From Pseudocolwellia sp. AS88 (GTDB lineage Bacteria > Pseudomonadota > Gammaproteobacteria > Enterobacterales > Alteromonadaceae), in NCBI RefSeq assembly GCF_030551755.1, contig NZ_JAUPEC010000027.1, forward strand, positions 1 to 64,000: DNA of 64,000 nt. Reading direction: 5' to 3'. Position numbers and translations under genes: made by a program. Positions 2,984 through 54,962 of this stretch are shown piece by piece. The notes under the pieces were generated by a model. That model was not told the origin of the DNA. It did no database searches and saw only the letters and a list, made by a program, of their open reading frames with translations. Positions within the stretch are counted from its first letter, which is position 1. Each line of letters starts with the position of its first letter.

Positions 2984-3130
2984 TCAACTTCTTAATAATC
3001 CTCAAATCTTCAGAAAATAATCCCACCTAAATCTTTATAAACTGTAGAATAGTATAGGCGAAATTAATCCTTTCTTTTGTTAGCGTTTTTTTTTATTTAC
3101 GTTAAACACATATCGAGTAAAGTTAAAAAT

Positions 3131-27209: not shown

Positions 27210-27228
27210 ACATTCTTATAAGACTAAC

Positions 27229-27461
27229 TAACCTCAGCTCAGGATAAGCAAAGTTACTCAATAAGCTATTTTTAAGCCTAACATCGTTGTATTCGTTACC
27301 AATAGCCAGCTATTGGGTAAACAAATCCGCCTTGCTAGGCATAAAACTATCAATATTGAGTCATCATATTACTTGTAAAGTACTCTGATGTTTCTTTAAT
27401 CTATTGATAAATAATTCTTTTTATTGAATGTTATGACATTCATTATCCCGAGTTGAGGTTA
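27229..27461. mobile_element. MITE-like element, family 1, copy 1 (233 bp)
   Basis: Terminal inverted repeats of 19 bp, TAACCTCAGCTCAGGATAA at the left and TTATCCCGAGTTGAGGTTA at the right, match with two mismatches. The 233-bp interior has no coding capacity. A second copy, nearly identical apart from a 49-bp block, lies at 54626-54907. It fills the space between the hydrolase terminator and the M2-peptidase stop codon. Confidence 0.8.
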
Positions 27462-36615: not shown

Positions 36616-36894
36616 AGGGTCTGTTGATCTTTCAGGGTTAAATTTTATTCAATTTAAAACGGATTTAATCGCGATGTGAGTTTTGTCTAATAGTTATTCT
36701 ATTAAAAAAGCGAACAACAATGAGTAAATTCGCTTTAAATGAACCCAAAGGGCAGCATGTGTTTGAAATTCCTAACTTTGGATAGTCAGGGCGTTATCGT
36801 CTGTTCGAGTAGCCAGCTACACGTCACAGACTCCGCCTTGTCTAAATATCAAACACCTTGCTGTAAAAATAATCTCGAAAGATTAACAGACCCT
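36616..36894. mobile_element. MITE-like element, family 2, copy A (279 bp)
   Basis: Ends are AGGGTCTGTTGATCTTTC (36616-36633) and GAAAGATTAACAGACCCT (36877-36894), an 18-bp inverted repeat with one mismatch. Both outer ends read TA|GGG...CCC|TA, as does the copy at 40938-41249, which suggests duplication of a TA target. The interior has no gene; a short frame starting MSKFALNEPKGQHVFEI is conserved in both copies but ends after ~21 codons here. Confidence 0.82.
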
Positions 36895-36929
36895 AGTTTG
36901 AGCTTATATAAAACGATAAGCTTACTTTA

Positions 36930-40937: not shown

Positions 40938-41249
40938 AGGGTCTGTTGAACTTTCAGGGTTAAATTTTATTCAATTTATAACGAATTTAATCGCGATGTG
41001 AGCTTTGTCTAATCGTTATTCTCGGCTTTGTCTCCTGAGTCGCCCTACCTTCTGCATCCATGCAGTCGTATTAAAAAAGCGAACAGCAATGAGTAAATTC
41101 GTTTTAAATGAACCCAAAGGGCAGCATGTGTTTGAAATTTATACCACGTTATCGTCTGTTCGAGTAGCCAGCTACACGTCACATACTCTGCCTTGTCTAA
41201 ATACCAAACACCTTGCTGTAAAAATAATCTCGAAAGATCAACAGACCCT
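40938..41249. mobile_element. MITE-like element, family 2, copy B (312 bp), overlapping the NRDE gene end
   Basis: The ends AGGGTCTGTTGAACTTTC (40938-40955) and GAAAGATCAACAGACCCT (41232-41249) match the copy at 36616-36894, as does most of the interior. Differences are a 47-bp block at 41023-41069 with the hairpin CTGCATCCATGCAG, and 7 bp in place of 21 bp near 41140. The right end overlaps the last codons of the NRDE gene. Flanking TA dinucleotides occur on both sides. Confidence 0.82.
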
Positions 41250-42035
41250 AGTAAATACTTCATCTAGTGACATATTTTTATTGCTAACTGCTTCTCCTGA
41301 TGGAGCATAAGTTCGTTCAGTAATCTCAACCACATTATTTATATCTTTTGTGATAATAATGGTTGAACGTGTGCCGTAATCAGGTGAAGTGATAAATATA
41401 GAACTGAGTAGGGCTTCGCGTTCAAGAGGTAAGCCTGTTCTGGGTAACGTTTCTGTGGAGGCTTTAGTTGTGTCATTCATTAAGGCTAACAGTAGCTCTA
41501 CATCAAGTTCATTTTCATGCTTTTTATCCGTTACTAAATCTTTTAGTTTTTGTTGACCTCGTTTCATTTTAGGCCAGCTATCCGATATAGCACCATTGCA
41601 AATACTAAAAACACCGTCTTCCATTAGATGTTCTTCTTTATTAACACTATCAAAGCCGTAGAGTTTGTCTAAACTGCCGTAGATTAAATTAAAACCATTA
41701 TAGTTTTGACTATTCTCAGTGAGGTGGTTTCTGATTTCTTGATGGTTGCCTGCAATGTTTTCTGGAGACAAAGCTTTAAGTACTAGATCACCACGCGATG
41801 TTTTGGTGTTATCAATTAAATCCGGTTGTCTAAAATTGGTTAATGCTGAAAAATGTTCTGATTGAGTTAAACCAAGCCAAGTTCCGCCTGCTTGTAAATC
41901 TTTACCCGCTAATATTTCGCTCTCAGACCAACGATGAAGGTTTTGGGTAGGTCTTTGGTGGAACTCGTCTCTGTTTGCACAAATAATAACTGGAAACTTT
42001 GGGTGTTGTTTTAAGGCGATAAATAGAATGCACAT
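41238..42035 (-). CDS. NRDE-family protein (TANGO2-like)
   Basis: The 265-residue protein starts MCILFIALKQHPKFPVIICANRDEFHQRPT: the Asn-Arg-Asp-Glu motif at ~21-24 with Cys2 is the signature of the NRDE/TANGO2 family, placed in the Ntn-hydrolase-like fold. Later blocks LAGKDLQAGGTWLGLT and ALTNFR are conserved. Its role in bacteria is unclear; heme-related trafficking has been proposed for TANGO2 homologues. The 3' end is unusual: the final Arg-Val-Cys and the TGA stop lie inside the terminal repeat of a MITE-like element, so the original C-terminus was probably replaced. Confidence 0.85.
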   Translation of the reverse strand: MCILFIALKQHPKFPVIICANRDEFHQRPTQNLHRWSESEILAGKDLQAGGTWLGLTQSEHFSALTNFRQPDLIDNTKTSRGDLVLKALSPENIAGNHQEIRNHLTENSQNYNGFNLIYGSLDKLYGFDSVNKEEHLMEDGVFSICNGAISDSWPKMKRGQQKLKDLVTDKKHENELDVELLLALMNDTTKASTETLPRTGLPLEREALLSSIFITSPDYGTRSTIIITKDINNVVEITERTYAPSGEAVSNKNMSLDEVFTRVC

Positions 42036-42237
42036 AGTTAATTTAAGACTTCGTTTAAGCTGGAAAATATATGAATAAGAACTAACTTTCGATTATATTC
42101 TTTCACTTCATTTGATAAAGGATGATTAATCAAGTCATCATCTTAGAAAATAGAGAAAGTGTTAGATATGTTTAAAAGCAATGCTCTATGCTTTAAACTT
42201 GATAATATTAAAGTGAGCCTGATGAAACAAGGTGTTT

Positions 42238-43017
42238 ATGTTCGAATTACCTAATATAAGTAATATAAATTTAAAAGATAAAGTCTCTGAAAGTGAGTGG
42301 AATACGCGAGTCGATTTAGCCGCTTGTTATCGCTTAGTGGCTTTACATGGTTGGGATGACTTAATTTACACTCATATTTCAGCACGTATTCCTGATACTA
42401 ATTATTATCTGATTAATGCATTTGGACTAACGTTTAAAGAAGTTACTGCATCAAATCTCGTTAAAATTGATATTGATGGCAATATTATTGATGCAGAATG
42501 TCCTTTTGAGATAAACCCTGCAGGTTTTACTATTCATAGTGCAATACATGCAGCACGACATGATGCTATGTGTGTTTTACATCTTCACACTAATGCAACT
42601 ATAGCGGTTGCGAGTGTAGAAGAAGGGCTTCTGCCTTTAAGCCAATATGCGATGTTTGCACTTGCCTCGCTAAGCTATCACGATTATGAAGGCTTAGCGG
42701 TTAATCCTGCAGAGAAAGTCAAATTACAAAACAACTTAGCTGATACCAATTTTATGCTGCTAAGAAATCATGGTGCGTTAACTGTGGGTAAAACCATAGG
42801 TGATGCATTTATGCATATGTACGATTTAGCACGTGCATGCGAAATTCAAGTGCAAATAATGTCGACGGGTATGAAACCTAATATTGTTGATCAAAGCATT
42901 ATTGATGGCATTAAAGCACAAGCAAATATAGTACATACTGGATTAACAGGTGGTCAAAAAGCTTGGCCTGCCATGTTAAGACGTGTGTATAACGAAGATC
43001 CAAGTTTTGCTCAATAG
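42238..43017 (+). CDS. Class II aldolase/adducin-family protein
   Basis: From ATG 42238 the protein is 259 residues (a GTG at 42232 would add two). AAGG lies 6 bp before the ATG. It has the class II aldolase layout: WNTRVDLAACYRLVALHGWDDLIYTHISAR, a zinc site from HLHTNAT (two His) and a third His in LLRNHGALTVG. Members cleave sugar phosphates or keto-acids, or act as decarboxylating or dehydrating enzymes. It is the first gene of a three-gene + strand unit with an enolase-superfamily gene 61 bp downstream, so it probably acts on the product of that enzyme. Confidence 0.8.
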   Translation: MFELPNISNINLKDKVSESEWNTRVDLAACYRLVALHGWDDLIYTHISARIPDTNYYLINAFGLTFKEVTASNLVKIDIDGNIIDAECPFEINPAGFTIHSAIHAARHDAMCVLHLHTNATIAVASVEEGLLPLSQYAMFALASLSYHDYEGLAVNPAEKVKLQNNLADTNFMLLRNHGALTVGKTIGDAFMHMYDLARACEIQVQIMSTGMKPNIVDQSIIDGIKAQANIVHTGLTGGQKAWPAMLRRVYNEDPSFAQ

Positions 43018-43078
43018 TATTTTGAGACCACAAACTCATTTACTTATTTTTTAAACAGCTTTTTATATAGAGAACTCC

Positions 43079-44254
43079 ATGAAAGTAACTCACGTTGAAA
43101 TTTTTGATATTCATTGTCCAGAACGTCCACCTTGGAATCCCGTTTTTATCCGCATACATACTGATGAAGGTATTACAGGTGTAGGTGAAGCTGGTTTAGC
43201 CTATGATTGGGGACACAGTGCAGCTGCAGCTATGATCAAAGAAATAGTGGAAGCTGTGTTAATTGGTTATGACCCTTTTCAAACTGAAAAGCTTTGGTCA
43301 CGTATGTTACGTGAAAGTTTTTGGGGCTTAGGCGGAGGACCTGTACTTTATTCTGCCATGAGTGCGATTGATACAGCGCTTTGGGACATAAAAGGTAAAG
43401 CTTTAGGTGTTCCTGTTTATCAATTGTTAGGGGGTAAAGTAAATGATGAATTACGTACTTATGCTAGCCAATTACAATTTGATTGGGATACTGAAATTAC
43501 CAAGTTAACTCAGCCTGAACAATACGCTGAAGCAGCATTAAAAGCAGTTGCAGAAGGTTATGATGCGGTTAAAGTTGATCCTATTGTTTATGATGCAAAT
43601 GGTGAATCATCATTTGATCGCACTAAGTTATTTACTCAACCGCAAATGCGTTTATTTGGTAATCGTTTAAGAGCTATTCGTGCTGCTGTTGGACCTGATG
43701 TTGACATCATTTTTGAATCTCATTCATTAATGGGCGCCGCTTCAGCTATTCAAATGGGCGAAGTTATCGAAGAAGTAGGCTGTATGATGTACGAAGAGCC
43801 TGTAAATTACTTAAATTCTGCGGTACATAAAAAAGTTGCTGAAAATGTGAAAGTGCCAATTGCTGGTGGCGAACGGTTGTACCATCGCTGGGATGTACGT
43901 CCGTATTTTGAAGATCAAAGTATTGATGTTTTACAGCCAGATGTTGGTTTATGTGGTGGTTTTACTGAAGCTAAAAAAGTGTGTGATTATGCTGATGTTT
44001 ATGACATTCGTATTCAAGCACATGTTTGTGGTGGTCCTGTAGCAACAGCGGCATCTTTACATTTAGAAACAGCGATACCTAACTTTTTAATTCATGAGCA
44101 TCATACTTATGCAACTAAAGCATGGAATCGTGAATTATGTATTCAAGATCCTCAACCTAAAAATGGTATATTCAAAGTGTCTGAAACACCGGGTATAGGC
44201 ATTGAATTGAACGACGACGTTGTAAAACGTTCTCCGCATGTGATTGTTAAGTAA
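43079..44254 (+). CDS. Enolase-superfamily sugar-acid dehydratase (mandelate-racemase group)
   Basis: The 391-residue protein has the capping domain (1-115) and a barrel with Lys165 in AVKVDP, metal-ligand candidates Glu213 (FESHS), Glu239/240 (YEEPVN) and Glu265 (GGERL), and a catalytic His315 (IQAHVCGG). The layout is closest to galactonate/mannonate-type acid-sugar dehydratases. Two details differ from what I recall: the first ligand is Glu where many members have Asp, and His215 two residues later would serve as the acid. It would dehydrate a sugar acid to a 2-keto-3-deoxy acid. Neighbours (aldolase, lactonase, SDR) suit such a pathway; the sugar is unknown. Confidence 0.82.
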   Translation: MKVTHVEIFDIHCPERPPWNPVFIRIHTDEGITGVGEAGLAYDWGHSAAAAMIKEIVEAVLIGYDPFQTEKLWSRMLRESFWGLGGGPVLYSAMSAIDTALWDIKGKALGVPVYQLLGGKVNDELRTYASQLQFDWDTEITKLTQPEQYAEAALKAVAEGYDAVKVDPIVYDANGESSFDRTKLFTQPQMRLFGNRLRAIRAAVGPDVDIIFESHSLMGAASAIQMGEVIEEVGCMMYEEPVNYLNSAVHKKVAENVKVPIAGGERLYHRWDVRPYFEDQSIDVLQPDVGLCGGFTEAKKVCDYADVYDIRIQAHVCGGPVATAASLHLETAIPNFLIHEHHTYATKAWNRELCIQDPQPKNGIFKVSETPGIGIELNDDVVKRSPHVIVK

Positions 44255-44269
44255 CCTAGAGTTATTGAT

Positions 44270-44554
44270 ATGAATAAAGTTGATATTAAGTTTTGTTCTA
44301 AATGTAAATGGTTAGCGCGCTCAGCTTGGATGGCGCAAGAGTTATTAACTACTTTTGAGAGCGAAATCGATGAGCTATCTTTGTTACCTGGTACTGGAGG
44401 TATATTTGAAATTTATGCTAATGGTACGCTTATTTGGTCGCGCAAAGATATGGGGCGATTTCCTGAGATTACCGAGTTAAAAACTTTAGTAAGAGATACC
44501 ATAGCGCCAGATAAAGATTTAGGCTGTATTGATCGGAAAAAGAATAACAGTTAG
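44270..44554 (+). CDS. Rdx/SelT-SelW-SelH-family thioredoxin-like protein
   Basis: The 94-residue protein begins MNKVDIKFCSKCKWLARSAWMAQELLTTF: Cys9-Ser-Lys-Cys12 is the redox CxxC (Cys in place of the selenocysteine of SelW). GTGGIFEIYANGTLIWSRKDMGRFPE is the family's second conserved block. It is a small cytoplasmic redox protein of uncertain role. It starts 15 bp after the dehydratase gene and is co-transcribed with the sugar-acid genes, an unexplained pairing. A strong terminator follows. Confidence 0.8.
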   Translation: MNKVDIKFCSKCKWLARSAWMAQELLTTFESEIDELSLLPGTGGIFEIYANGTLIWSRKDMGRFPEITELKTLVRDTIAPDKDLGCIDRKKNNS

Positions 44555-44660
44555 TTTAAGCGAGGGATAACCCATTATCTCTCATTCATACTTGTTAGTT
44601 TTTGATAATTACAAAATCTGATATCTCAATAAGTTAATGTTAGAAGAAGTTAATATCACA

Positions 44661-44707
44661 AGAAGTTAAGTGTGCTTAGTCGATAAGCTCTTAACTTCTT
44701 TTTCTTC
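44661..44707 (+). terminator. Terminator of the aldolase-dehydratase-Rdx operon
   Basis: AGAAGTTAAG (44661-44670) and TTAACTTCT (44691-44699) pair, with an inner GCTTA/TAAGC stem, followed by TTTTTCTTCT. It lies ~105 bp after the last stop codon. Confidence 0.82.
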
Positions 44708-44731
44708 TATATTGAGATTTTATCGCTAGTT

Positions 44732-45094
44732 ATACCAAGCGGATTCATTTATTGCACACTTAGCGAGAATTAAAAGGCTTAGAGGCACAGGTTCATAGTT
44801 CCAGACTGAACCTAAGCACCTACATTCATGTAGGCGAGGCATTGATTGAAGATAATGATTATTCTCGGTAACTGCTCCTGCGTTACCCTAATGTCCTACA
44901 TCCATGTAGGAACCTTGTCAAAATCAATAACGCGGCATATAAGCTTTTAAATTCTCGCCCTTGGGGAGCTCATTAGCAAACTGATAACATCACAAAATTG
45001 AAGAAATATAGAATAACTATGTTTAATCAATTTTGCTTGTTCTAAGCTTGCTAATGTAGCTCTAAGTTGCTCAATAAATTAATCCGTTTGGTAT
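44732..45094. mobile_element. MITE-like element, family 3 (363 bp)
   Basis: Ends ATACCAAGCGGATTCATTTA (44732-44751) and TAAATTAATCCGTTTGGTAT (45075-45094) are inverted copies with two mismatches. Inside are further nested palindromes: GCGAGAATTAAAAGGCTTA (44763-44781) against TAAGCTTTTAAATTCTCGC (44941-44959), and GAGCTCATTAGCAA (44967-44980) against TTGCTAATGTAGCTC (45049-45063). The transcript would fold into two adjacent long hairpins. Two CCTACAT-n-CATGTAGG hairpins (44819-44834 and 44895-44910) lie in the left half. There is no ORF. Confidence 0.75.
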
Positions 45095-45106
45095 TATTCT
45101 AATGCT

Positions 45107-45994
45107 CTAAAACTTATACCAGTGCTTTGAGTTTTCTAAGCAAAGTTGTGCCAGTTGTTTTTGATTATAAAACGTTAGACTTGAATGAAATTGCCAAACC
45201 TCTTGATAACTTTTACTGAATAAACACAGTGGAAAGTTGCTTCCTAGCATGACTCTATTAATACCAAAAGCTCGAACACAATGAGCAATAATATTATCGC
45301 ACCAAAGAGAATTATATTCTCTGTTTTGCATTTCCCAACCAGAACATTTTATTGCGCAATGTTCAAATTGACTAAGTGTTTTTAAGCTCTTTAGCCAATG
45401 ATTAAAGTTACTGTTTTGCTCAGGAATATTATGTTTCATGAAGTAGGGCGGTGAGCCAGCATGATTAATAATAATGGTCAGTTCAGGTAGTTGCTGAAGT
45501 ATGTCGGTTAACGCCTTTATGCCTTTTAGATCGGATAAAGGCATTTGTAAGTCAAAACTTAATTGCTTGTTTGCTAAGATTTTTAAATTAGCTAAGGTGT
45601 TTTTATGGCTTAGTATGTCGAATGCTAAATCATCTAAAATATGTCGACAGCCGACAACACTTTTAAAGCTAAGTAGTTTACCTATTTGCTTTATAAAAAC
45701 ATCCGCTGGCGTAGTTAAATCAATACAAGCCACAGAGCGGAAGTTATTTTTACAGTTCGATTCTAACCATTGAATCTCTCGCCAAGGAAATTCATTATCA
45801 AAGCCCGCTTCAATATGCACAAAGCCCGAAAGTTCAAGATCTTGCGTTTGAGTGAATAAATTAATATCTGCTTCAGAAAAGTTATTATTGATAACTTTTT
45901 TATCTGACCAAAAAGGAGGGTTTTCAGGCTTTAGCCATTGATATTCGCCAAGTGATAAATCAAATAAATGAATATGTGGATCAATAATTTTCAT
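45107..45994 (-). CDS. Amidohydrolase-family lactonase-like protein
   Basis: The 295-residue protein begins MKIIDPHIHLFDLSLGEYQWLKP, the D-x-H-x-H metal motif of the COG3618/amidohydrolase-2 group, to which L-fucono- and L-rhamnono-lactonases belong. Further conserved His/Asp sites appear in GFVHIEAG, IIINHAGSP and the C-terminal MLGSNFPL (usually G-S-D-x-P; here Asn replaces Asp). It would open sugar lactones made by a dehydrogenase; the SDR gene 46 bp upstream on the same strand is a fitting partner. The Asp-to-Asn change at the usual metal or catalytic position is worth noting. Confidence 0.78.
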   Translation of the reverse strand: MKIIDPHIHLFDLSLGEYQWLKPENPPFWSDKKVINNNFSEADINLFTQTQDLELSGFVHIEAGFDNEFPWREIQWLESNCKNNFRSVACIDLTTPADVFIKQIGKLLSFKSVVGCRHILDDLAFDILSHKNTLANLKILANKQLSFDLQMPLSDLKGIKALTDILQQLPELTIIINHAGSPPYFMKHNIPEQNSNFNHWLKSLKTLSQFEHCAIKCSGWEMQNREYNSLWCDNIIAHCVRAFGINRVMLGSNFPLCLFSKSYQEVWQFHSSLTFYNQKQLAQLCLENSKHWYKF

Positions 45995-46040
45995 GCTAAA
46001 ACCTTGCCTTACGTATTGTTGCTGTTACTTGTTAGGAGAT

Positions 46041-46766
46041 TTATTGTGCGGTATATCCGCCATCAATCACTTGTAAGCTACCTGTGATGAACTTTGATTT
46101 TTCAGACGCTAAAAATAGCACAAGTTCTGCAACTTCTTCCGGTTGTCCTAATCTGCCTAATGGTTGTAAATCAGATTCTTCTTGATGGATTTGAGCTTTA
46201 TCGGCCCCTGAGCGTTCACAATATTTATCTATAGCTTGATGATAAAGAGGTGTTTCAATGGTCCCAGGACAAACAGCATTTGAGCGTATATTGTAACTTG
46301 CGTAATCGAGCGCTGTTGTTTTTGCGATTGAGGCTAATGCTGCTTTACTCATGTTATAGGCAAATGAGTTGTGCTTTGCTATCAATGCTTGGTCTGACGC
46401 CATTATAATAATTGAACCAGCGTTGTTTGCCTTCATTGAAGGTAGTACCGCTTTTACTGCGGCATAAGCACCTTTAACATTAATATTAAAGACACGATCA
46501 AATTCAGCTTCTGAGGTGTTTTCAATAGTACCTGAAAAATGAATACCTGCATTCGACACCAGTACGTCTATTGTATGTTGAGCACTTATTTCATTAATAA
46601 TTTGACCTACGGCATCAACATTTGTGATGTCACATGCTTTAAATATTCCATTGTCTGATGGCGTAATATCTAAGTTAAATACTTGGTAATTATTTGCTAA
46701 AAATAATTGAACAATACTCAAACCGATACCTGAACTACCGCCAGTAACTATGCATGTTTTTTTCAT
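46041..46766 (-). CDS. SDR-family oxidoreductase
   Basis: The 241-residue classical short-chain dehydrogenase has the cofactor motif TGGSSGIG (8-15), NAG at ~72-74 and the catalytic set Ser124, Tyr137, Lys141 (Y-N-M-S-K). Its C-terminal QVIDGGYTAQ ending is typical. Asp33 after the second strand (FNLDI) suggests NAD rather than NADP. It heads a two-gene minus-strand unit with the lactonase-like gene, so oxidation of a sugar to its lactone is a reasonable guess. The convergent aldolase-dehydratase operon would complete the route. Confidence 0.85.
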   Translation of the reverse strand: MKKTCIVTGGSSGIGLSIVQLFLANNYQVFNLDITPSDNGIFKACDITNVDAVGQIINEISAQHTIDVLVSNAGIHFSGTIENTSEAEFDRVFNINVKGAYAAVKAVLPSMKANNAGSIIIMASDQALIAKHNSFAYNMSKAALASIAKTTALDYASYNIRSNAVCPGTIETPLYHQAIDKYCERSGADKAQIHQEESDLQPLGRLGQPEEVAELVLFLASEKSKFITGSLQVIDGGYTAQ

Positions 46767-46843
46767 GGAAATGTCTTTTAAGGAAATAAAAATATTAGGT
46801 TTATAATAACGTTATCAGTAATGAACTGCTATTAAGAGTATTA

Positions 46844-46878
46844 AAAAAGCCAACAATTTGTATAAACTGTTGGCTTTG
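46844..46878 (-). terminator. Rho-independent terminator of the M20 dipeptidase gene
   Basis: AAAGCCAACA pairs with TGTTGGCTTT; on the minus strand the hairpin is followed by TTTTTAAT. It lies ~55 bp past the dipeptidase stop codon. Confidence 0.85.
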
Positions 46879-46931
46879 ATGTTTTTTTCCTAAAACTCAG
46901 GCGTTAATAAAGCCTGTTTATTTAGAGACAA

Positions 46932-48437
46932 CTATTTAGCTAACTCGATAAACGCTGCAGTGTACATTTTTAAATTTAATGTGAATTGTTTTACTGTAAT
47001 GAATTCATTTTCCGTATGACCTGTATATTCGGTATTTGGCATTGAAGGTCCAAAACTTACGGCTCTAGGGAACATTCTTGAGTTTGTGCCGCCACCAATT
47101 GAAATAGGTTTAGCATCTTTAATCCCTGTATAGTGCGAGAAGATAGATAATAAGGTGTCAACTTGAGGTGCATCATCTTGTACCCAAGGTTCTTTAACAA
47201 CAGTATTTAAATCAGTGATAGTGAATTGGTTGGTACTTGACCAGTCGTATACTGTTTTGATTACTTGTGCTTTCAGAGTTGTTGTATCTTTTCCTCTAGG
47301 ACGTCGAATATTAATATTAAGCTGCGTGCCGTTATCAAGTTGCTTTAATACTGTTGGAGATAAGGTTAGAGGTCCCATAAAGTCGTCTTTAAACGCTAAT
47401 TCACCAAATTTATCTGCGTATAAACCTGTTCCAATATTATCATTAATAAAGTTTACTAGTGCGCCACTTGTATTCGCTGGCCAGCGTTTGAATGAGATTA
47501 AATCTGCAAGATAGGTAATAGCATTTACACCGTCTTCAGGTTTTGAAGAATGAGCTGATTTACCTAAGGCTTTAATTGTTAAAACTTGATCAGTTAAATC
47601 AAAGTCGAAACCTATGTTTTTGTAAAATTTTGCTTTATTGATAACTTGTTGAAGTAATTCAACGCTCGCATTTTTAATGATGGCTGTAGCATCTTCAGGT
47701 ATTTGGCTACCAAAAAAACCACCGGTAAATGATTCTAAATAAGCCTGTTGAGTGCTTACTGCTTTGTTAGGAAAAGTTAAACTAATGGTCCCATACCCTT
47801 TTTCTGCTGTTACAACGGGGTATTCTGCATCAATAGTTATATTCATTTGAGGTAGGTCGTGAGTTTTTATGTATTCTTCTAACGGTGCCCAATCTGACTC
47901 TTCAGCCATGTATATGTATAACTCTAATCTTTTGTTTAGCTTTATACTTTTATCTTTAATTGCTTTCATAGCGTATAAAGCTGTAGAGATAGGGCCTTTG
48001 TCATCTTCTGTTCCACGACCAATTATTGTGCCGGGTTTTGATGTTAAATCTAATGTGTATGGCGATTGTTTCCATTTAGTTTTATTAGCCGGCTGAACAT
48101 CACCGTGCGTAACAATACCAACACGATCTGTTGAATCACCTAAGCCAATGATCACGACAAAACCATCATCTTTAAAATCAAGACCAAGTTCGGCAGCTTG
48201 TTTCTTTAATTCTTGTTTAAAAGCTATGTGAACAGGGTTTTCTGGAGAAGGAATACCTTCAACGGCAACAGTATTATGCTTAACGAGTTGCGCCAAGCTA
48301 TTTATCATGTCTTCTTTGTAAGTTTCTACAGCGTAAGTTGCTGTTTCATCAGCTAATGAGCTTACTTTCATTGCACTTACTGATGTTGAGAAAAAAAATG
48401 GTACTAGTAGTGTTAATAAACTAAGTTTCTTAATCAC
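46932..48437 (-). CDS. M20-family dipeptidase with signal peptide
   Basis: The 501-residue protein carries a signal peptide (to about SVSA, residue 22), so it is periplasmic. The PepV/M20 zinc-site blocks are intact: THGDVQPA (His ligand, Asp), GRGTEDDKGP (bridging Asp), MAEESDW (catalytic Glu and ligand Glu), TIDAEYPV (Asp ligand) and HTENEF (C-terminal His). A lid domain occupies ~220-400. It hydrolyses dipeptides. Together with the M2 and M13 lipoproteins in this window it adds to an envelope peptide-degrading set. Confidence 0.88.
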   Translation of the reverse strand: MIKKLSLLTLLVPFFFSTSVSAMKVSSLADETATYAVETYKEDMINSLAQLVKHNTVAVEGIPSPENPVHIAFKQELKKQAAELGLDFKDDGFVVIIGLGDSTDRVGIVTHGDVQPANKTKWKQSPYTLDLTSKPGTIIGRGTEDDKGPISTALYAMKAIKDKSIKLNKRLELYIYMAEESDWAPLEEYIKTHDLPQMNITIDAEYPVVTAEKGYGTISLTFPNKAVSTQQAYLESFTGGFFGSQIPEDATAIIKNASVELLQQVINKAKFYKNIGFDFDLTDQVLTIKALGKSAHSSKPEDGVNAITYLADLISFKRWPANTSGALVNFINDNIGTGLYADKFGELAFKDDFMGPLTLSPTVLKQLDNGTQLNINIRRPRGKDTTTLKAQVIKTVYDWSSTNQFTITDLNTVVKEPWVQDDAPQVDTLLSIFSHYTGIKDAKPISIGGGTNSRMFPRAVSFGPSMPNTEYTGHTENEFITVKQFTLNLKMYTAAFIELAK

Positions 48438-48657
48438 AAGTTATCCTTAAAAGTAATTTTATATTGATGACATTATCGTATGATTCAAAGTTATTATAGC
48501 GAATAAATACATAAGCTCACTGCACAGATATGTTTTAATTAACCTATACAGCTCTTTATGTTCAGAAATATTAAAAAAGTGATGAAAACGTCCCTGTTTA
48601 GTGTGGTTTTAAGGTAAAATATGGGACTGTTTATTCAATTTATTATCTAGGTAGGTT

Positions 48658-49002
48658 ATGACGTTAACACAACTTTTAGAAGTAATATCACAACAACCAC
48701 AAAACGTTTCTTTTGATGATGTGATCAGTACTATTAATGAAAATTACCAATACACACCAACAACTTTTAGTAATGGTGAAGTGGTTAATGAGTCAGGAAC
48801 TAATGAAGGCTCATGCAAAATTTTTGCTTTTGCTCAATTAAACGATCTTTCAGTAGAGCAAACGCTAGCATGTTTTGGTAAGTATTATCGTGAAGATGTT
48901 TTAGAAAACCCTGAAGGCAACGACCATGGTAATATTCGCAATTTTATGATTTCTGGCTGGGAAGGTGTTAAGTTTTCTGGTGAGGCTTTAGTTAAGGTTT
49001 AG
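48658..49002 (+). CDS. HopJ-family protein
   Basis: The 114-residue protein matches the HopJ family along its length: LLEVISQQPQNVSFDDVISTINENYQYTPTTFSNG, then NESGTNEGSCKIFAFAQLNDLS and ALACFG-like TLACFGKYYREDVL, with the closing NIRNFMISGWEGVKFSGEAL. The name comes from a plant-pathogen type III effector, but homologues are widespread in free-living gammaproteobacteria, and no secretion system lies here, so an effector role is unlikely. Function unknown. A hairpin follows. Confidence 0.85.
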   Translation: MTLTQLLEVISQQPQNVSFDDVISTINENYQYTPTTFSNGEVVNESGTNEGSCKIFAFAQLNDLSVEQTLACFGKYYREDVLENPEGNDHGNIRNFMISGWEGVKFSGEALVKV

Positions 49003-49091
49003 TTAAGGCGCAAGCTAAGGGCTTAAGTTAAGAATAAAACTAAGTTGTAAAAACTGATATTTATAACAAGCTACACATGGTTTGCAATCTA

Positions 49092-49120
49092 AGTGATGCT
49101 GAATCAAAAAAAAGCATCAC
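49092..49120. terminator. Hairpin between convergent hopJ-like and fapA-like genes
   Basis: AGTGATGCT (49092-49100) pairs perfectly with AGCATCACT (49112-49120). It lies 11 bp before the FapA-like stop codon (minus) and 90 bp after the HopJ stop. The loop contains an A-run; this gives weak support to minus-strand termination. Confidence 0.6.
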
Positions 49121-49131
49121 TGAATATATTG

Positions 49132-50817
49132 TTAAGTATGAATGATTGGATCGATATGAACCTTTCTTTCTAGATAAAACATTTTACTTGGGCCATGTTC
49201 TCGTTTTGTTCTTTCATTGAAGTCACCAATATTAAGTTTTACACCATGATATATACGTTCTGTGGCTTCAATATATACTTCAGTCATATAAGTTTGAATT
49301 TGTGCTTCAATAATCTCTTTTTCAACAAGAATTTCACCCATTTTACGGGCATGGTATTGATAGGTTGAAACCACTTTTTTTATCATTTCTGCAGGCGCTT
49401 TGCCCTTAGGAAGTGCCTTGATTTTATTGGTTGCTACCTTTAGTTCTTGAGTTTTATTGGTTTCAATTTTTAGCTGTTCTTCAACTTCTATAATTTGCTG
49501 TCTGTATTCTTGGATTTTTTTATTAAAGGTAATTGTTGTTGCGCTTCCTGCTGTTGCGCCTACTGTTCCTGCGTGTACTGAATTCACAGCATTGATATAA
49601 CCAGCAATTAGCTTTCCATCGGCTTTCTCTTCTGAACCTACCCAAACTTTATCGTTAACATCAATTATACTATGCATTAATTGGTTGTTTATTCTCAAGG
49701 TATTGCAGGTAATGTCTGCATATTGACAATATTTGGCGAAAATATTACCTACAGCATTAATCGTTGCGCTCATTGTAATATCTGATTTAGAGAGGTCTTC
49801 CACTTCTTGCTTTTTACCAAGAATACCGCCAATGATAGTGATATCACCACCAGCCTCTAAATAAGCTGATTCAACAAAACCACCAACAGTTATATCGCCT
49901 TTAGCAACAACTTTCATACCTTCACAAACATCGCCATCTATAATAACGCTGCCTTCAAATTTAATATGACCCGTTGTGACATCAACATTTTTCAATTTAT
50001 ACACTTCATCTATCGCTATTCCATTGTTTATCGACCGCGGTAATCCGACTAATGTAGAAATAAGGATGTTTTTATTTTTAGGGCTGATGATAGTGCCTTC
50101 CCCCGCAGTCATTTCGATATCGTCACCTGGATTCGGTTCAAGAGGAGCACCTTTGACGGTATAACCTTTAACACCTTCGGTACAAGGTATTATTTGGGCA
50201 AGAGGTTCACCAACACGTACACAAATAATGTCACCTAAATCTCTCATATCAACAGTGCCGTCATCACGCTCTCTGGGGCGTAATATTCGGTCTTGAGCAC
50301 ATTGTACTAGGAGTTTTATACGGGCATTGGAACCATTGATGGGGGTTTTACCTTTAGCAATAACTTCTTTGAGTAATATGCCTTCAGGTTCTGTAATTGA
50401 TTTTTGAGCTAGGCGTATGAGCCCCTCTTTTACGAAACCTTTTTTGACACCTGCAGCCTGTGCTGAATTTAATATATCTTTAGCTGTAAGGTTTTTACCA
50501 CCTAATGCTGTTGTGATTTCGGCGGAGGCAGACATCTCATCATCATCAATTTTTATTTCAATGGTGGCATCTTTGCGCTCTAGAACTTGATAACGGATTT
50601 CTCGACCCGTTTTATCTTTTTGTAATGGTTTTAAAACGCTATTCAGTTCTGCTATAGCATTTCTAATATTACTAATATTTAACTCTAAATGACTGTATTC
50701 AGATTTCTCAATTAGGCTCTGTATAACTGATTCATTAATGACGCTGTCATTTTTGATTGGTTGTAAAACCAAGTCGATATTGTTTTTTTTATTTTCAACC
50801 AAGTTTGCTTGAGTCAC
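49132..50817 (-). CDS. FapA-like (DUF342) protein
   Basis: The 561-residue cytoplasmic protein contains the DUF342/FapA core: residues ~165-260 (LPRERDDGTVDMRDLGDIICVRVGEPLAQIIP-like and GVKGYTVKGAPLEPNPGDDI) and a repetitive beta-helix-like stretch at ~275-400 (VIIDGDVCEGMKVVAKGDITVGGFVESAYLEAGGDITIIGG). A coiled coil follows at ~430-530. FapA proteins affect polar flagellum assembly and polar localisation of EIIA-Glc in Vibrio. The start is GTG 50817 with AAAGGATG upstream. It is transcribed behind an unknown 108-residue protein and no flagellar gene is near, so its role here is open. Confidence 0.82.
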   Translation of the reverse strand: MTQANLVENKKNNIDLVLQPIKNDSVINESVIQSLIEKSEYSHLELNISNIRNAIAELNSVLKPLQKDKTGREIRYQVLERKDATIEIKIDDDEMSASAEITTALGGKNLTAKDILNSAQAAGVKKGFVKEGLIRLAQKSITEPEGILLKEVIAKGKTPINGSNARIKLLVQCAQDRILRPRERDDGTVDMRDLGDIICVRVGEPLAQIIPCTEGVKGYTVKGAPLEPNPGDDIEMTAGEGTIISPKNKNILISTLVGLPRSINNGIAIDEVYKLKNVDVTTGHIKFEGSVIIDGDVCEGMKVVAKGDITVGGFVESAYLEAGGDITIIGGILGKKQEVEDLSKSDITMSATINAVGNIFAKYCQYADITCNTLRINNQLMHSIIDVNDKVWVGSEEKADGKLIAGYINAVNSVHAGTVGATAGSATTITFNKKIQEYRQQIIEVEEQLKIETNKTQELKVATNKIKALPKGKAPAEMIKKVVSTYQYHARKMGEILVEKEIIEAQIQTYMTEVYIEATERIYHGVKLNIGDFNERTKREHGPSKMFYLERKVHIDPIIHT

Positions 50818-50854
50818 GAACTACATCCTTTATGTTCAACCGTTGCTTAATTTT

Positions 50855-51181
50855 TTAAATATAATTTTCTTGATGTATCTTTATAAATGCAGGTGTTTTT
50901 ATTTTAGAGTAATCAATTTTGTACTCTTTATTATCTAAAGCTTGTATAAATAATAAGGTTTTTTCTTCGCCAAAACATTCCGAGGAGCTTATATCAATAA
51001 CTTCCTGATAGACTTTTTTAGCTTCAGACCTTTTTCTTGGGATTTCACCTTTATATTCGCCTATACCCCTATTACTTATTATAACGACAGGGTTTTCGCC
51101 ATTAATTATAAGTAAATCAAATTTTCTATTTTTGTGGATAATGGTATTTCGTCCACTAGTGATAAAATTCTTTTCTATCAA
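50855..51181 (-). CDS. Unknown 108-residue protein upstream of the fapA-like gene
   Basis: A TTG at 51181 is preceded by AGGAG at ideal distance and opens a 108-codon frame ending 37 bp before the FapA-like GTG. The product (MIEKNFITSGRNTIIHKNRKF...) is basic in the middle, has short alternating strands (FDLLIINGENPVVIIS), no signal peptide and no membrane helix; it ends in a motif-poor lysine/isoleucine-rich tail. I recognise no family. Co-transcription with the FapA-like gene suggests a shared process. Confidence 0.6.
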   Translation of the reverse strand: MIEKNFITSGRNTIIHKNRKFDLLIINGENPVVIISNRGIGEYKGEIPRKRSEAKKVYQEVIDISSSECFGEEKTLLFIQALDNKEYKIDYSKIKTPAFIKIHQENYI

Positions 51182-51397
51182 AATACGCTCCTAATCTCGG
51201 CAACTGGTTTCAGTTTGATTTTAAAATGTGTAACTTACAGTATTTAAAATATAATAAATTGCTGTATTAACAATAAATTAACAGTGAGGGGAAGTAATAA
51301 TTTAAATGCTTTAGCAGTCAATATATAAAGTTTTAAATTACTAAGCAATAAATAACCCGTATATCATTACAAATACGCATGTATTAAGCGTTTTATA

Positions 51398-52675
51398 TTA
51401 ATTTACATACCAAGGTTGGTGAGAACTGTTTATTAAAAAACGTCTCACTAAATCTAAACATCTTGCCGCAACCGTGCGCTGGAAGTTATTTCTTTCACCT
51501 TTAACAATAAAATGTTGGCTATGCATATTGTTAGAATTCCCCCATGCTATCCAAACTGTACCCGTTGGTTTTTCAAGTGTTCCGCCTGTAGGGCCTGCTA
51601 TACCAGAAACAGCAACTGCTATATCTGCATGACTTTTGGCTAATGCACCTTGTGCCATAGCTAAAACGGTATCTTTACTTACCGCACCAAAGGTATTTAA
51701 CGTTGTTTGTGGTACACCTAGCATTTCTGTTTTCATTTCGTTGGAGTATGTAACAAAACCTGCTTCAAATACTTGTGATGAACCTGAAAGTTCAGTTATT
51801 TGACTAGCAATTAACCCGCCAGTACATGATTCAGCTGTGGTGATGGTTAGTTTGTTTTTTAGTAATAATTGATAAACATATGAAGGAAGAGATACGTTAT
51901 CGCCTTCTATTTCACCTAAAATGTGATCATTTAATAGATTATGAAATTTTGGCAACCATTGTTTTTTTGTTTCATAAGCCGCTTTTGTATAACTTGTTAA
52001 TTTCAATTCTAAAGTAGGGGAGTTTGCTCTATAGCCAATTTCAATTTCGTTAGGTAGGTCAGGGAAACTCTCATTAATTAACATCTGAAGCTTCGATTCT
52101 CCAATACCGAAAGTTTGAAATCGAGTGGTATGAGCTAATTCTTGTTCAGGCAGCTGGCTTTTTAATAAAGGGATAATCTCTTCATTTAGCATTATCTTCA
52201 ATTCGCTCGGGACCCCTGGTGTACAATATATGTCACAGTCGTTAATGTTTAAATGAATACCAACAGCACTGCCAGTTCGGTTATGAATGATTTTACTTTT
52301 TTTTGGTAATATGGCTTGTTTTAAATTAGCTTGATCAAGCACTAACTCGCGTTTTTTCGCCCATAAAGTTAAATGTTTTATTGCCTCAGGGTTCTCTTCT
52401 AGCGTTGATTCTGCAGCTATAGCTAATGCTTCAGAGGTTAGATCATCCGTTGTTGGTCCTAAACCGCCATTAATAATAAGTATGTCTGCAAGTTTAGACA
52501 TATGTTGTATTTCGCTCGCCAGCGTATTTAGGTTATCTGAAATAGTTACACGTCTAGAAACATCAATACCCAAGCCTTTGATCTGTTTTGCAATATAGGC
52601 TGAGTTTGTATCAATAACATCGCCGCTGACGAGTTCATTGCCAGTGAGGAGTAATTGCAAATTGATAGACGACAT
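51398..52675 (-). CDS. cinA: CinA-family nicotinamide-nucleotide amidohydrolase
   Basis: The 425-residue protein has both CinA parts: an N-terminal MoaB/COG1058-like domain (~1-170: LLLTGNELVSGDVIDTNSAYIAKQIKGLGI then NGGLGPTTDDLTSEAL), and a C-terminal PncC domain (~265-415: TTAESCTGGLIASQITELSGSSQVFEAGFVTYSNEMK and AVSGIAGPTGGTLEKPTGTVWIAWG). It recycles pyridine nucleotides by deamidating NMN. AAAGG precedes the ATG. The C-terminus is complete. Confidence 0.92.
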   Translation of the reverse strand: MSSINLQLLLTGNELVSGDVIDTNSAYIAKQIKGLGIDVSRRVTISDNLNTLASEIQHMSKLADILIINGGLGPTTDDLTSEALAIAAESTLEENPEAIKHLTLWAKKRELVLDQANLKQAILPKKSKIIHNRTGSAVGIHLNINDCDIYCTPGVPSELKIMLNEEIIPLLKSQLPEQELAHTTRFQTFGIGESKLQMLINESFPDLPNEIEIGYRANSPTLELKLTSYTKAAYETKKQWLPKFHNLLNDHILGEIEGDNVSLPSYVYQLLLKNKLTITTAESCTGGLIASQITELSGSSQVFEAGFVTYSNEMKTEMLGVPQTTLNTFGAVSKDTVLAMAQGALAKSHADIAVAVSGIAGPTGGTLEKPTGTVWIAWGNSNNMHSQHFIVKGERNNFQRTVAARCLDLVRRFLINSSHQPWYVN

Positions 52676-52985
52676 AAGTTTACCTTTCTTTTATTCAATT
52701 AATTATAGCTATGAGACATCATAAATATTATCTAAGTATATTCATACATTTATCATTGAATTTAATACTGTTTTTATTTTAAATGTGTTTTTTTGTTTAA
52801 GTGAATAAAGCAATTAATAAATAATTCAGAAATATTTATTGGTTAATGTTTGTATAGATTTTAATAAACATAAAAGTAGAATGTTTTTAAAGTCTTAATT
52901 ACATTATTGTTTGCTCAACCGTATCAAATAACTAAGTTTAACGTTAGAATAAAGTCGATTATTGTAGCTAAGGAAGCTTAATATT
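52676..52985. other. AT-rich intergenic region between cinA and a small-protein gene
   Basis: These 310 bp separate divergent genes. I see no ORF, repeat or clear operator. The end carries AAGGAAG (52971-52977), the ribosome-binding site of the next gene. Confidence 0.35.
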
Positions 52986-53372
52986 TTGGCTAAAACATTT
53001 AACCGTAATTTGTTATTAGGGTATTGGTACAGAGGCGATTCAGATGCTGAAGGAAATCAAATAACCGAGTTCGCACGGATAGAACCAGACGGTAGTTTTG
53101 AGTTTTTATTTGTGCAATATAATAACGAAGGCGAGGTTGTTGAAGAAATAACTGAGCTAGGTGACTGGGGCTTAGTTGGCGATATTCACTTTACCATCAC
53201 TAAAGGTGAATTAATTGACGAAGAACATTATGCTGCTGATATGACTGATGATGAAAATTATCAAGCCTATAAAGTACTGGCCTTAGACAGTAATATTGTT
53301 AAGTATCAACATATAATTACAGAAGAAGTATTTATCCTAAGACGTGTTGTTGATAAAATAGCTCATTGCTAA
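52986..53372 (+). CDS. Conserved-looking 128-residue protein of unknown function
   Basis: The start is TTG 52986 with AAGGAAG 8 bp upstream. The product begins MAKTFNRNLLLGYWYRGDSD; the segment LLGYWYRG...GNQITEFARIEPDGSFEFLFVQYN has the alternating pattern and LxGxW motif of lipocalin-like beta-barrels. It is acidic (ELIDEEHYAADMTDDENYQAY) with no signal peptide. I do not recognise a named family; a small ligand-binding barrel is inference from the pattern. Confidence 0.6.
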   Translation: MAKTFNRNLLLGYWYRGDSDAEGNQITEFARIEPDGSFEFLFVQYNNEGEVVEEITELGDWGLVGDIHFTITKGELIDEEHYAADMTDDENYQAYKVLALDSNIVKYQHIITEEVFILRRVVDKIAHC

Positions 53373-53605
53373 TCATAGTTTGAGCAAATATATTACACAA
53401 CTTTACATATTATTATTTTATTTATGTGTAAGCTTCCCATTCTGAGTGTGTTGAGCTTTCTAGATTAATGAAATGTTTTTCCGTGTTACGTTTGTATATG
53501 TAAATAACGATAGAGTACAAACGCTAGTTATTTGAGAAAACAAACTAATTATACTAATTACCAAGTGTTTAATATTTACCGCACTTTTAAAATTTTGAGA
53601 TAAAA

Positions 53606-54514
53606 ATGAAAAGACTTAAAGACGCAAGTTTAATAACAGCAATAAAAACCCCTTATGATGCACATGGTGAAATAGACCTAGCAACATATGATTTACTTGT
53701 GGCAAAGCAACTTGAAGCTGGAGTTGACGGTATTATTGTTGGTGGAACAACAGGAGAAGGGCATCTTTTAAGCTGGGAAGAGCATTTAATGCTTATTGCT
53801 CATACCGTAAACCGTTATGGCGATAAATTAATTGTTGTTGGCAATACTGGTAGCAATAATACGCGCGAAGCGATTAAAGCCACTAAACATGGTTTTGCAA
53901 TGGGAATGCATGCAGCATTACAAATTAACCCATATTACGGTCGCACTTCAGATAAAGGTGTTGTAGAACATTTTAAAGCGGTATTAGATATTGGCCCTGC
54001 ATTTATTTATAACGTGCCGGGTAGAACAGGGCAAGACGTAACGCCTGAAATGATAGCGCCATTATCAACACACAAAAACTTTATTGGTGTTAAAGAATGT
54101 TCTGGCAATGAGCGTATAGCTCAGTATGAAAAGAATGGTATTGCATGTTGGTCTGGCAATGACGATGAAAGTTTTGCTGGCAGACATGAATTTGGTTCAC
54201 ATGGCGTTATTTCTGTAGCTTCAAATATTATTCCGCAAGTTATGCGTAAATTAATGGATGAACCAGATCACGAGTTAAATAAGAGTGTTACAAACTTTAT
54301 GTCGTGGTTGTTTTGCGAGCCTAACCCTATCGCATTAAATACAGCCTTGATGATGACTAAAGCTGTTAACCCTGTATTTAGATTACCGTATTACGCTTTA
54401 AACCAACAACAGCGTGAAGAAGGTTTTGCTTTATTACAAGAAATTAATTCAGATGAACTTGTGGGCGATAGCTTATCTGTTATGTCTGACGATGATTTTT
54501 CTTACATAGCATAA
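53606..54514 (+). CDS. dapA: DapA-family aldolase/lyase, likely 4-hydroxy-tetrahydrodipicolinate synthase
   Basis: The 302-residue TIM-barrel protein has the family's pyruvate-binding GGTTGEG (46-52), the catalytic Tyr135 (FIYNVPGRTG) and the Schiff-base Lys163 (FIGVKECSG). The Arg after PG (Arg140) matches the DapA residue that binds the aspartate semialdehyde carboxylate, supporting a true lysine/diaminopimelate-pathway role over N-acetylneuraminate lyase. It looks closer to plant-type DHDPS (VKECSGNERI, WSGNDDE) than to the E. coli enzyme, which is a recollection rather than an alignment. It stands alone on the + strand. Confidence 0.82.
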   Translation: MKRLKDASLITAIKTPYDAHGEIDLATYDLLVAKQLEAGVDGIIVGGTTGEGHLLSWEEHLMLIAHTVNRYGDKLIVVGNTGSNNTREAIKATKHGFAMGMHAALQINPYYGRTSDKGVVEHFKAVLDIGPAFIYNVPGRTGQDVTPEMIAPLSTHKNFIGVKECSGNERIAQYEKNGIACWSGNDDESFAGRHEFGSHGVISVASNIIPQVMRKLMDEPDHELNKSVTNFMSWLFCEPNPIALNTALMMTKAVNPVFRLPYYALNQQQREEGFALLQEINSDELVGDSLSVMSDDDFSYIA

Positions 54515-54962
54515 GTCACTAAATTCAGCTAAGTACTAAAAAATAAATTTAGATTACACTAATGTCTTATCATAGATAAGTCATGATGTTGCTCTAGAGA
54601 ATAAGGCGTCGCTTTTATACATAAGTAACCTCAACTCGGGATAAGCAAAGTTACTCAATAAGCTATTTTTAAGCCTAACATCGTTGCCTACATGGATGTA
54701 GGTACTTAGTTTTTATCGGGAATAAAAAAACTGTGTATTCGTTACCAATAGCCAGCTATTGGGTACACAAATCCGCCTTGCTAGGCATAAAACTATCAAT
54801 ATTGAGTCATCATATTACATGTAAAGTACTTTGATGGTTCTTTAATCTATTAATAAATAATTCTTTTTATTGAATGTTATAACATTCATTATCCCGAGTT
54901 GAAGTTACGTAATAAAAGCGACGTCTTTAAATTTTAAAATACCTTATTGTATCTAGTTCAAG
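54515..54962. other. Convergent intergenic region occupied by a MITE-like element
   Basis: Besides the family-1 element (54626-54907), the flanks contain complementary GCGTCGCTTTTAT (54606-54618) and ATAAAAGCGACGT (54912-54924), which would form a hairpin if the element were removed. No gene is present. Confidence 0.7.
54626..54907. mobile_element. MITE-like element, family 1, copy 2 (282 bp)
   Basis: Terminal repeats TAACCTCAACTCGGGATAA (54626-54644) and TTATCCCGAGTTGAAGTTA (54889-54907) differ at one position. Outside a 49-bp block at 54687-54735 it matches the copy at 27229-27461 almost base for base. The block holds CCTACATGGATGTAGG and a second small hairpin (AGTTTTT...AAAAAACT). Confidence 0.82.

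Follow-up and report, generated by a model that had tools for sequence, protein, structure and literature searches.

Some copies of three MITE families in a 64,000-nucleotide stretch of the Pseudocolwellia sp. AS88 genome (the window, meaning the whole of that stretch) contain, as an optional insert, a block that is probably a non-autonomous mobile DNA module, only 47-49 bp long, formed by two hairpins set end to end and inserting sharply. Comparison of the sequences establishes covarying hairpins, sharp ends, empty and filled sites, many contexts, nesting, tandem arrays and a target consensus for this module. The observation of the shared block, first made in a first-pass annotation of the window, is confirmed, and its reading as a moving module is supported by several situations described below.

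The module in the window and its fold

The three blocks originally reported are real, with positions that agree exactly or within a few bases, and their resemblance is not chance. A covariance model matches the window at exactly these three blocks (73.6, 27.2 and 19.5 bits, with E values of 2e-36, 6e-12 and 7e-8, respectively). The search pattern proposed in the annotation gives 9 matches in the genome as compared with 0 for its reversed control, and the palindrome alone occurs 42 times as compared with once. The terminal repeats of the host families are, as had been claimed, unrelated: TAACCTCAACTCGGG in family 1, AGGGTCTGTTGATC in family 2 (its ends also given as AGGGTCTGTTGATCTTTC) and ATACCAAACGGATTAATTTATTGAGCAA in family 3. 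Two details of the earlier description change. In the sequence given as the start of the block, ATTCTCGG, the ATTC belongs to the host in families 2 and 3; and the family-1 block, taken for a shorter version, is instead of a different subtype, which shares hairpin A but not hairpin B. A second family-3 module, 44788..44836, had gone unlisted. Its hairpin-A loop is mutated to CATGAATG, other family-3 copies retaining CATGGATG, and a repeat in a same-genus genome has this subtype in some copies only (G002, locus L216 compared with L218 and L221). The exact limits of the inserts in the window (Table 1) are derived from empty copies. Genome copy counts come from sequence searches of the window's assembly (G000, 4.3 Mb), in which the host elements gave 50 (family 1), 28 (family 2) and 36 (family 3) matches.

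Table 1. Modules and host elements in the window
Feature	Coordinates	Strand	Remarks
Module, subtype CGAC...CCGA, 47 bp	41022..41068	-	After ATTC in family-2 copy B; covariance model 19.5 bits
Module, subtype TTCC...CCGA, 48 bp	44865..44912	-	In family-3 element; covariance model 73.6 bits
Second family-3 module, subtype CG/TG...CTG, 49 bp	44788..44836	-	Missing from the first-pass annotation
Module, subtype TGCC...CTG, 49 bp	54685..54733	+	Family-1 copy 2; hairpin-B loop with GGGA; covariance model 27.2 bits
Host MITE family 2, filled copy	40938..41250	.	Terminal repeats AGGGTCTGTTGA...
Host MITE family 2, empty copy	36616..36895	.	
Host MITE family 3 with two modules	44732..45094	.	Terminal repeats ATACCAA(A/G)CGGATT...
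Host MITE family 1, filled copy	54624..54910	.	Terminal repeats TAACCTCAACTCGGG
Host MITE family 1, empty copy	27227..27461	.	

Two other repeats of the window may be recorded here. Families 1 and 2 have in common a hairpin stretch, TAGCCAGCTA...CCGCCTTG (27290-27345 and 36800-36860), which is present in empty and filled copies alike and is a possible second exchanged piece. Positions 1-465 and 735-1082 hold direct repeats with periods of ~159 and ~87 bp, probably in a gene for a repetitive protein.

The module consists of two back-to-back hairpins; read on one strand, their loops are AUGGAU and, typically, AGGA. Hairpin A, a 4-bp stem with the loop CATGGATG, is set ~2 nt in from the left end and is followed by a short linker; hairpin B is longer, usually has the loop GCAGGAGC followed by one bulged A, and stops ~2 nt from the right end. 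In other subtypes the second loop is GGGAA, AGGAA or UGGAA. Because the letters of CATGGATG and GCAGGAGC were fixed by the search pattern, their invariance is no evidence of conservation; the GGA retained in the second loops of subtypes retrieved through hairpin A alone is such evidence. Among 35 diverse modules from relatives, the stems contain 98 doubly changed cells as compared with 28.5±5.0 after shuffling, and 90.8% of cells are paired as compared with 25-54% when the pairing is slid. On the GGA strand, G-U slightly exceeds A-C (13 versus 6). RNA folding of the CTG-ended subtypes pairs almost the whole unit into two hairpins with two bases between them, and the ends of the insert are therefore the ends of the hairpins. 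The module at 44865..44912 also forms two hairpins when folded (DNA z -5.9), and the second hairpin of the subtype found in family 2 and in the gene pglX is weak (DNA z -0.9 and 0.0), which suggests that hairpin B may be dispensable.

Empty and filled sites, nesting and targets

That the comparison copies lack the block cleanly, as first described, holds genome-wide: empty and filled versions can be aligned in all three host families, with empty copies at three loci for family 1 (L018, L019, L020), five for family 2 (L042, L045, L046, L047, L049) and two for family 3 (L073, L074). Relative to these copies, and to empty orthologues of pglX, the inserts are precise, with sharp ends. Wherever the module ends are unambiguous, including the family-3 sites and the nested sites described below, target duplication is absent. 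In one family-3 element (L076) the family-3 module is missing, and a module of the family-2 type, oppositely oriented, lies across GAATAACCATTC from where other copies have theirs. Deletion or recombination inside the elements also happens, so that both processes act; two family-3 modules are fused at L075 and at L079, and the empty sites of family 1 have 1-3 bp of microhomology.

An insertion into a protein-coding gene is seen in the phage-defence system BREX-1, where a 48-bp copy of the family-2 subtype lies in frame inside the methyltransferase gene pglX of Escherichia coli ZF34, Moellerella W18-2 and Salmonella. In ZF34 and W18-2 the filled junctions read CAATGCA|GACGACTGCATGG...AAAGCC|GACAACCG, with a 2-bp ambiguity. 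The empty form, CAATGCAGACAACCG, has the same flanks in five orthologues (E. coli HNSQ2209, P21 and PSS-11, Klebsiella michiganensis and Moellerella W65). The insert, at 3001-3048 of the ZF34 locus (L409) and also at L410 and L417, adds 16 residues, and the ZF34 reading frame remains open. The region is present in 53 E. coli genomes, only two of which match at >=99%, and a Salmonella plasmid has the same sequence as the ZF34 region; in the E. coli search, pglX was the only place where the module was found. Directly upstream of the insert, ~30 bp are missing from ZF34 pglX.

Modules also occur within modules and in tandem. A MITE of Shewanella KJ10-1 contains four exact 47-bp units in tandem, CGACTGCATGGATGCAGGAGGTAGAGCAACGCAGGAGCAGTTGCCGA, whose ends match those of the family-2 insert in the window (41022..41068), and an exact 47-mer is common to Shewanella and Methylobacter. 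In Methylococcales (L339, L348, L353 and the ten copies of genome G326, which is grouped there by the likeness of its copies to L353), as well as in a Methylophaga MAG (L313) and at L276, one module is nested in hairpin B of another at GCA^GGAGC. A wider pattern for nested copies retrieved only G326 among 274 genomes, and loop nesting of the GCA^GGAGC form is therefore locally common and not general. In G326 (L392-L401) the module-in-module composite has itself become a dispersed repeat. Other nested modules lie within the loop of hairpin A (L249) or within linkers (L277, L258), and in genome G044 a module occupies the loop of a REP-like hairpin next to which stand empty copies. A search outside any element had been suggested in the annotation, and copies clear of all three MITE families do lie beside 5S rRNA genes where three contigs of the window's own genome end. 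Downstream of 5S rRNA at L123 (1490-2100) and at the ends of L128 and L129 there are several GGATG hairpins with duplicated terminators, and such clusters occur at no fewer than three rRNA operons.

Across 54 distinct contexts the flanks have the consensus A^module^GGAG, with A at position -1 in 30 and G at position +1 in 44. The left and right flanks tend to pair with each other: the mean is 4.37 as compared with 3.63 in shuffled pairs (reached in 0 of 500 shuffles), and pairing of at least 6 bp is found in 9 contexts as compared with 2.1 in shuffles. Confinement to a single family had been named in advance as a sign of coincidence; copies occur in three MITE families and at least 54 unrelated contexts. 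Of the two origins offered at the outset, the independently moving module is thus the one supported, by L076, the empty and filled states of pglX, nesting, exact tandem units and these 54 contexts. The other, in which the blocks descend from ancient internal hairpins of a single MITE superfamily that recombination at the repeated hairpins has removed or exchanged between families, is very improbable and mostly refuted already, for the fusions and microhomologies that it accounts for stand against the pglX insert with its empty orthologues, the opposite orientation in L076, and modules within modules, REP loops and rRNA spacers.

Distribution, movement and function

The pattern CATGGATGN{10,26}GCAGGAGC is present in 29 of 79 relatives, with zero matches for the reversed control and a gap that is almost always 16-17 nt. 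In a class-wide search with covariance model R1 at a threshold of E<=0.01, the module was detected in 185 of 274 gammaproteobacterial genomes, where weak matches near the threshold may be false, and in ~60 (counted from the table) at E<=1e-10. Among the named hosts are Shewanella, Pseudoalteromonas, Methylobacter, Methylomonas, Endozoicomonas, Dokdonella and Halopseudomonas. Matches extend beyond the class to some other genomes of the phylum, one of which, G350, has 28 (L405). As many of these lie near contig ends, they are probably part of a longer collapsed repeat. The 47-mer consensus was not found in a phage collection.

The mechanism that we propose, partly by inference, is one in which the module inserts with sharp ends, without target duplication and in either orientation. 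Its preferred targets would be A^GGAG-like sites at the tips of hairpins, whether in MITE interiors, in REP-like hairpins or in the module's own loops, and this preference would account for the optional inserts, the nesting and the tandem arrays. The window's three MITE families would be passive carriers, with MITE copying and recombination between modules adding to the spread. The module may move as folded single-stranded DNA, recognised through its loops by a putative enzyme supplied in trans; sharp ends coincident with hairpins, strand asymmetry, the preference for hairpin tips, and the lack of both inverted ends and duplications fit such movement. The sequence of the module's left end is poorly conserved, which is unusual for a transposase site and counts against a mobile module. 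An IS110 source was rejected: one Catenovulum copy is near an IS110 gene, and similar sequence occurs elsewhere in unannotated stretches without IS110.

An alternative that we regard as unlikely is that the unit is an RNA module of the CsrA/RsmA type, in which the GGA loops of the tandem hairpins are candidate CsrA sites and the transcripts bind or titrate CsrA, which would explain their persistence. The canonical CsrA motif is GGA in hairpin loops (PMC8144298), and hairpins A and B read CAUGGAUG and GCAGGAGC, respectively; the GGA kept in the second loops of the hairpin-A-only subtypes fits the same reading, as does the position beside 5S rRNA genes, given that E. coli sRNAs at rRNA operon ends bind CsrA (PMC8144298). 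Against it, the modules have no strand bias relative to genes (41 tandem sense and 35 antisense, 44 convergent and 28 divergent), a result on which a cis-acting RNA role was also rejected. In the 5S-linked copies at contig C21 the GGA is on the strand opposite the rRNA, and no CsrB/RsmZ-type Rfam match was found in the window or the module loci. Moreover, CsrA binding alone leaves sharp insertion, nesting and arrays unexplained.

Rather less likely still is a REP/RAYT-like element moved by a Y1 tyrosine transposase of the TnpA-REP type. Subterminal hairpins, the lack of inverted ends and of target duplication, and a GTAG that precedes hairpin B in one subtype are what such an element would have, but GTAG is not general. 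The mover was sought through PF01797 (Y1/RAYT), which is present in 20 of 29 module-positive and 25 of 50 module-negative relatives, with no consistent co-occurrence, and is absent from three genomes (G010, G028, G042) with 11-17 module copies each. Because of these absences Y1/RAYT is not required for current copy numbers, and it was ruled out as a necessary mover. The copies in G010 and G042 ride on one or two MITE types; many copies per genome ride on one MITE family, and copy counts are not counts of module jumps.

If the moving-module reading is correct, bacterial mobility can involve units of <50 bp that begin and end where two hairpins do and that are directed to the tips of hairpins as well as to their own loops. 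Across Gammaproteobacteria, such units would offer a testable account of mosaic MITEs and of intergenic arrays of hairpins, and they would account for at least one change in the length of a phage-defence gene; loop-directed insertion would turn the search for the mover into a concrete question. Possibly, and here our suggestion is tentative, the module represents a new class of minimal mobile element of <50 bp in Pseudomonadota, spread by single-stranded DNA recombination at GGA hairpin loops, its own included, through a recombinase so far linked to no repeat of this kind.

Comparison with known systems

A known RNA family was rejected as the module's identity, as Rfam has no family that matches it in searches of the window and the module loci; the Rfam 12.0 paper, which joins MITE and CsrA terms, appears to have no bearing on the module. 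A literature search, with limited coverage of subscription papers, found no description of it, and an earlier description is possible.

Several systems are similar in part. Rickettsia palindromic elements are mobile pieces of ~100-150 bp with a single palindrome that insert into protein genes in a compatible frame. In-frame insertion is seen here in one gene, the 48 bp in pglX, whereas the module is <50 bp, has two hairpins and belongs to other bacteria. In pneumococcal BOX elements, tandem optional boxB modules lie inside a larger mobile repeat, an arrangement that the Shewanella arrays resemble; the module is presumably unrelated in sequence and, unlike boxB, also occurs alone and in many hosts. 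With non-autonomous elements derived from IS200/IS605 it shares a subterminal hairpin near each end and the lack of inverted ends and duplication. It seems to differ from them in that, on the hairpin strand, the conserved flank follows the module on its 3' side, and in that Y1 is not required. The opposite strand has CTCC or ATTC 5' of the module, where the IS200/IS605 type has a conserved target tetranucleotide, and several genomes are without Y1. The module junctions, A^CGAC and CCGA^G, depart from the integron attC core GTTRRRY.

Mitochondrial double-hairpin elements and GC clusters are tiny, optional, apparently mobile double hairpins (PMC2800124), which the module resembles in form; unlike it, they are organellar. 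REP/REPIN sequences are GTAG- and CGTC-tagged palindromes linked to RAYTs (PMC3733652), and like the module they are short, strand-asymmetric hairpin repeats dispersed across many bacteria, but the module has two unlike hairpins with fixed loops, has no Y1 link and inserts inside other hairpins (PMC3733652). In place of the REP/RAYT terminal tag, GTAG precedes hairpin B in some modules and TTAG, AATG or ACTT in others, and G010, G028 and G042 are rich in copies without PF01797. As for MITEs, the module's ends, CGAC/TTCC...CCGA, are not inverted, and its nested and family-3 sites have no target-site duplication. Despite partial likenesses, the module departs from REP/RAYT systems and from MITEs in a defining feature of each.
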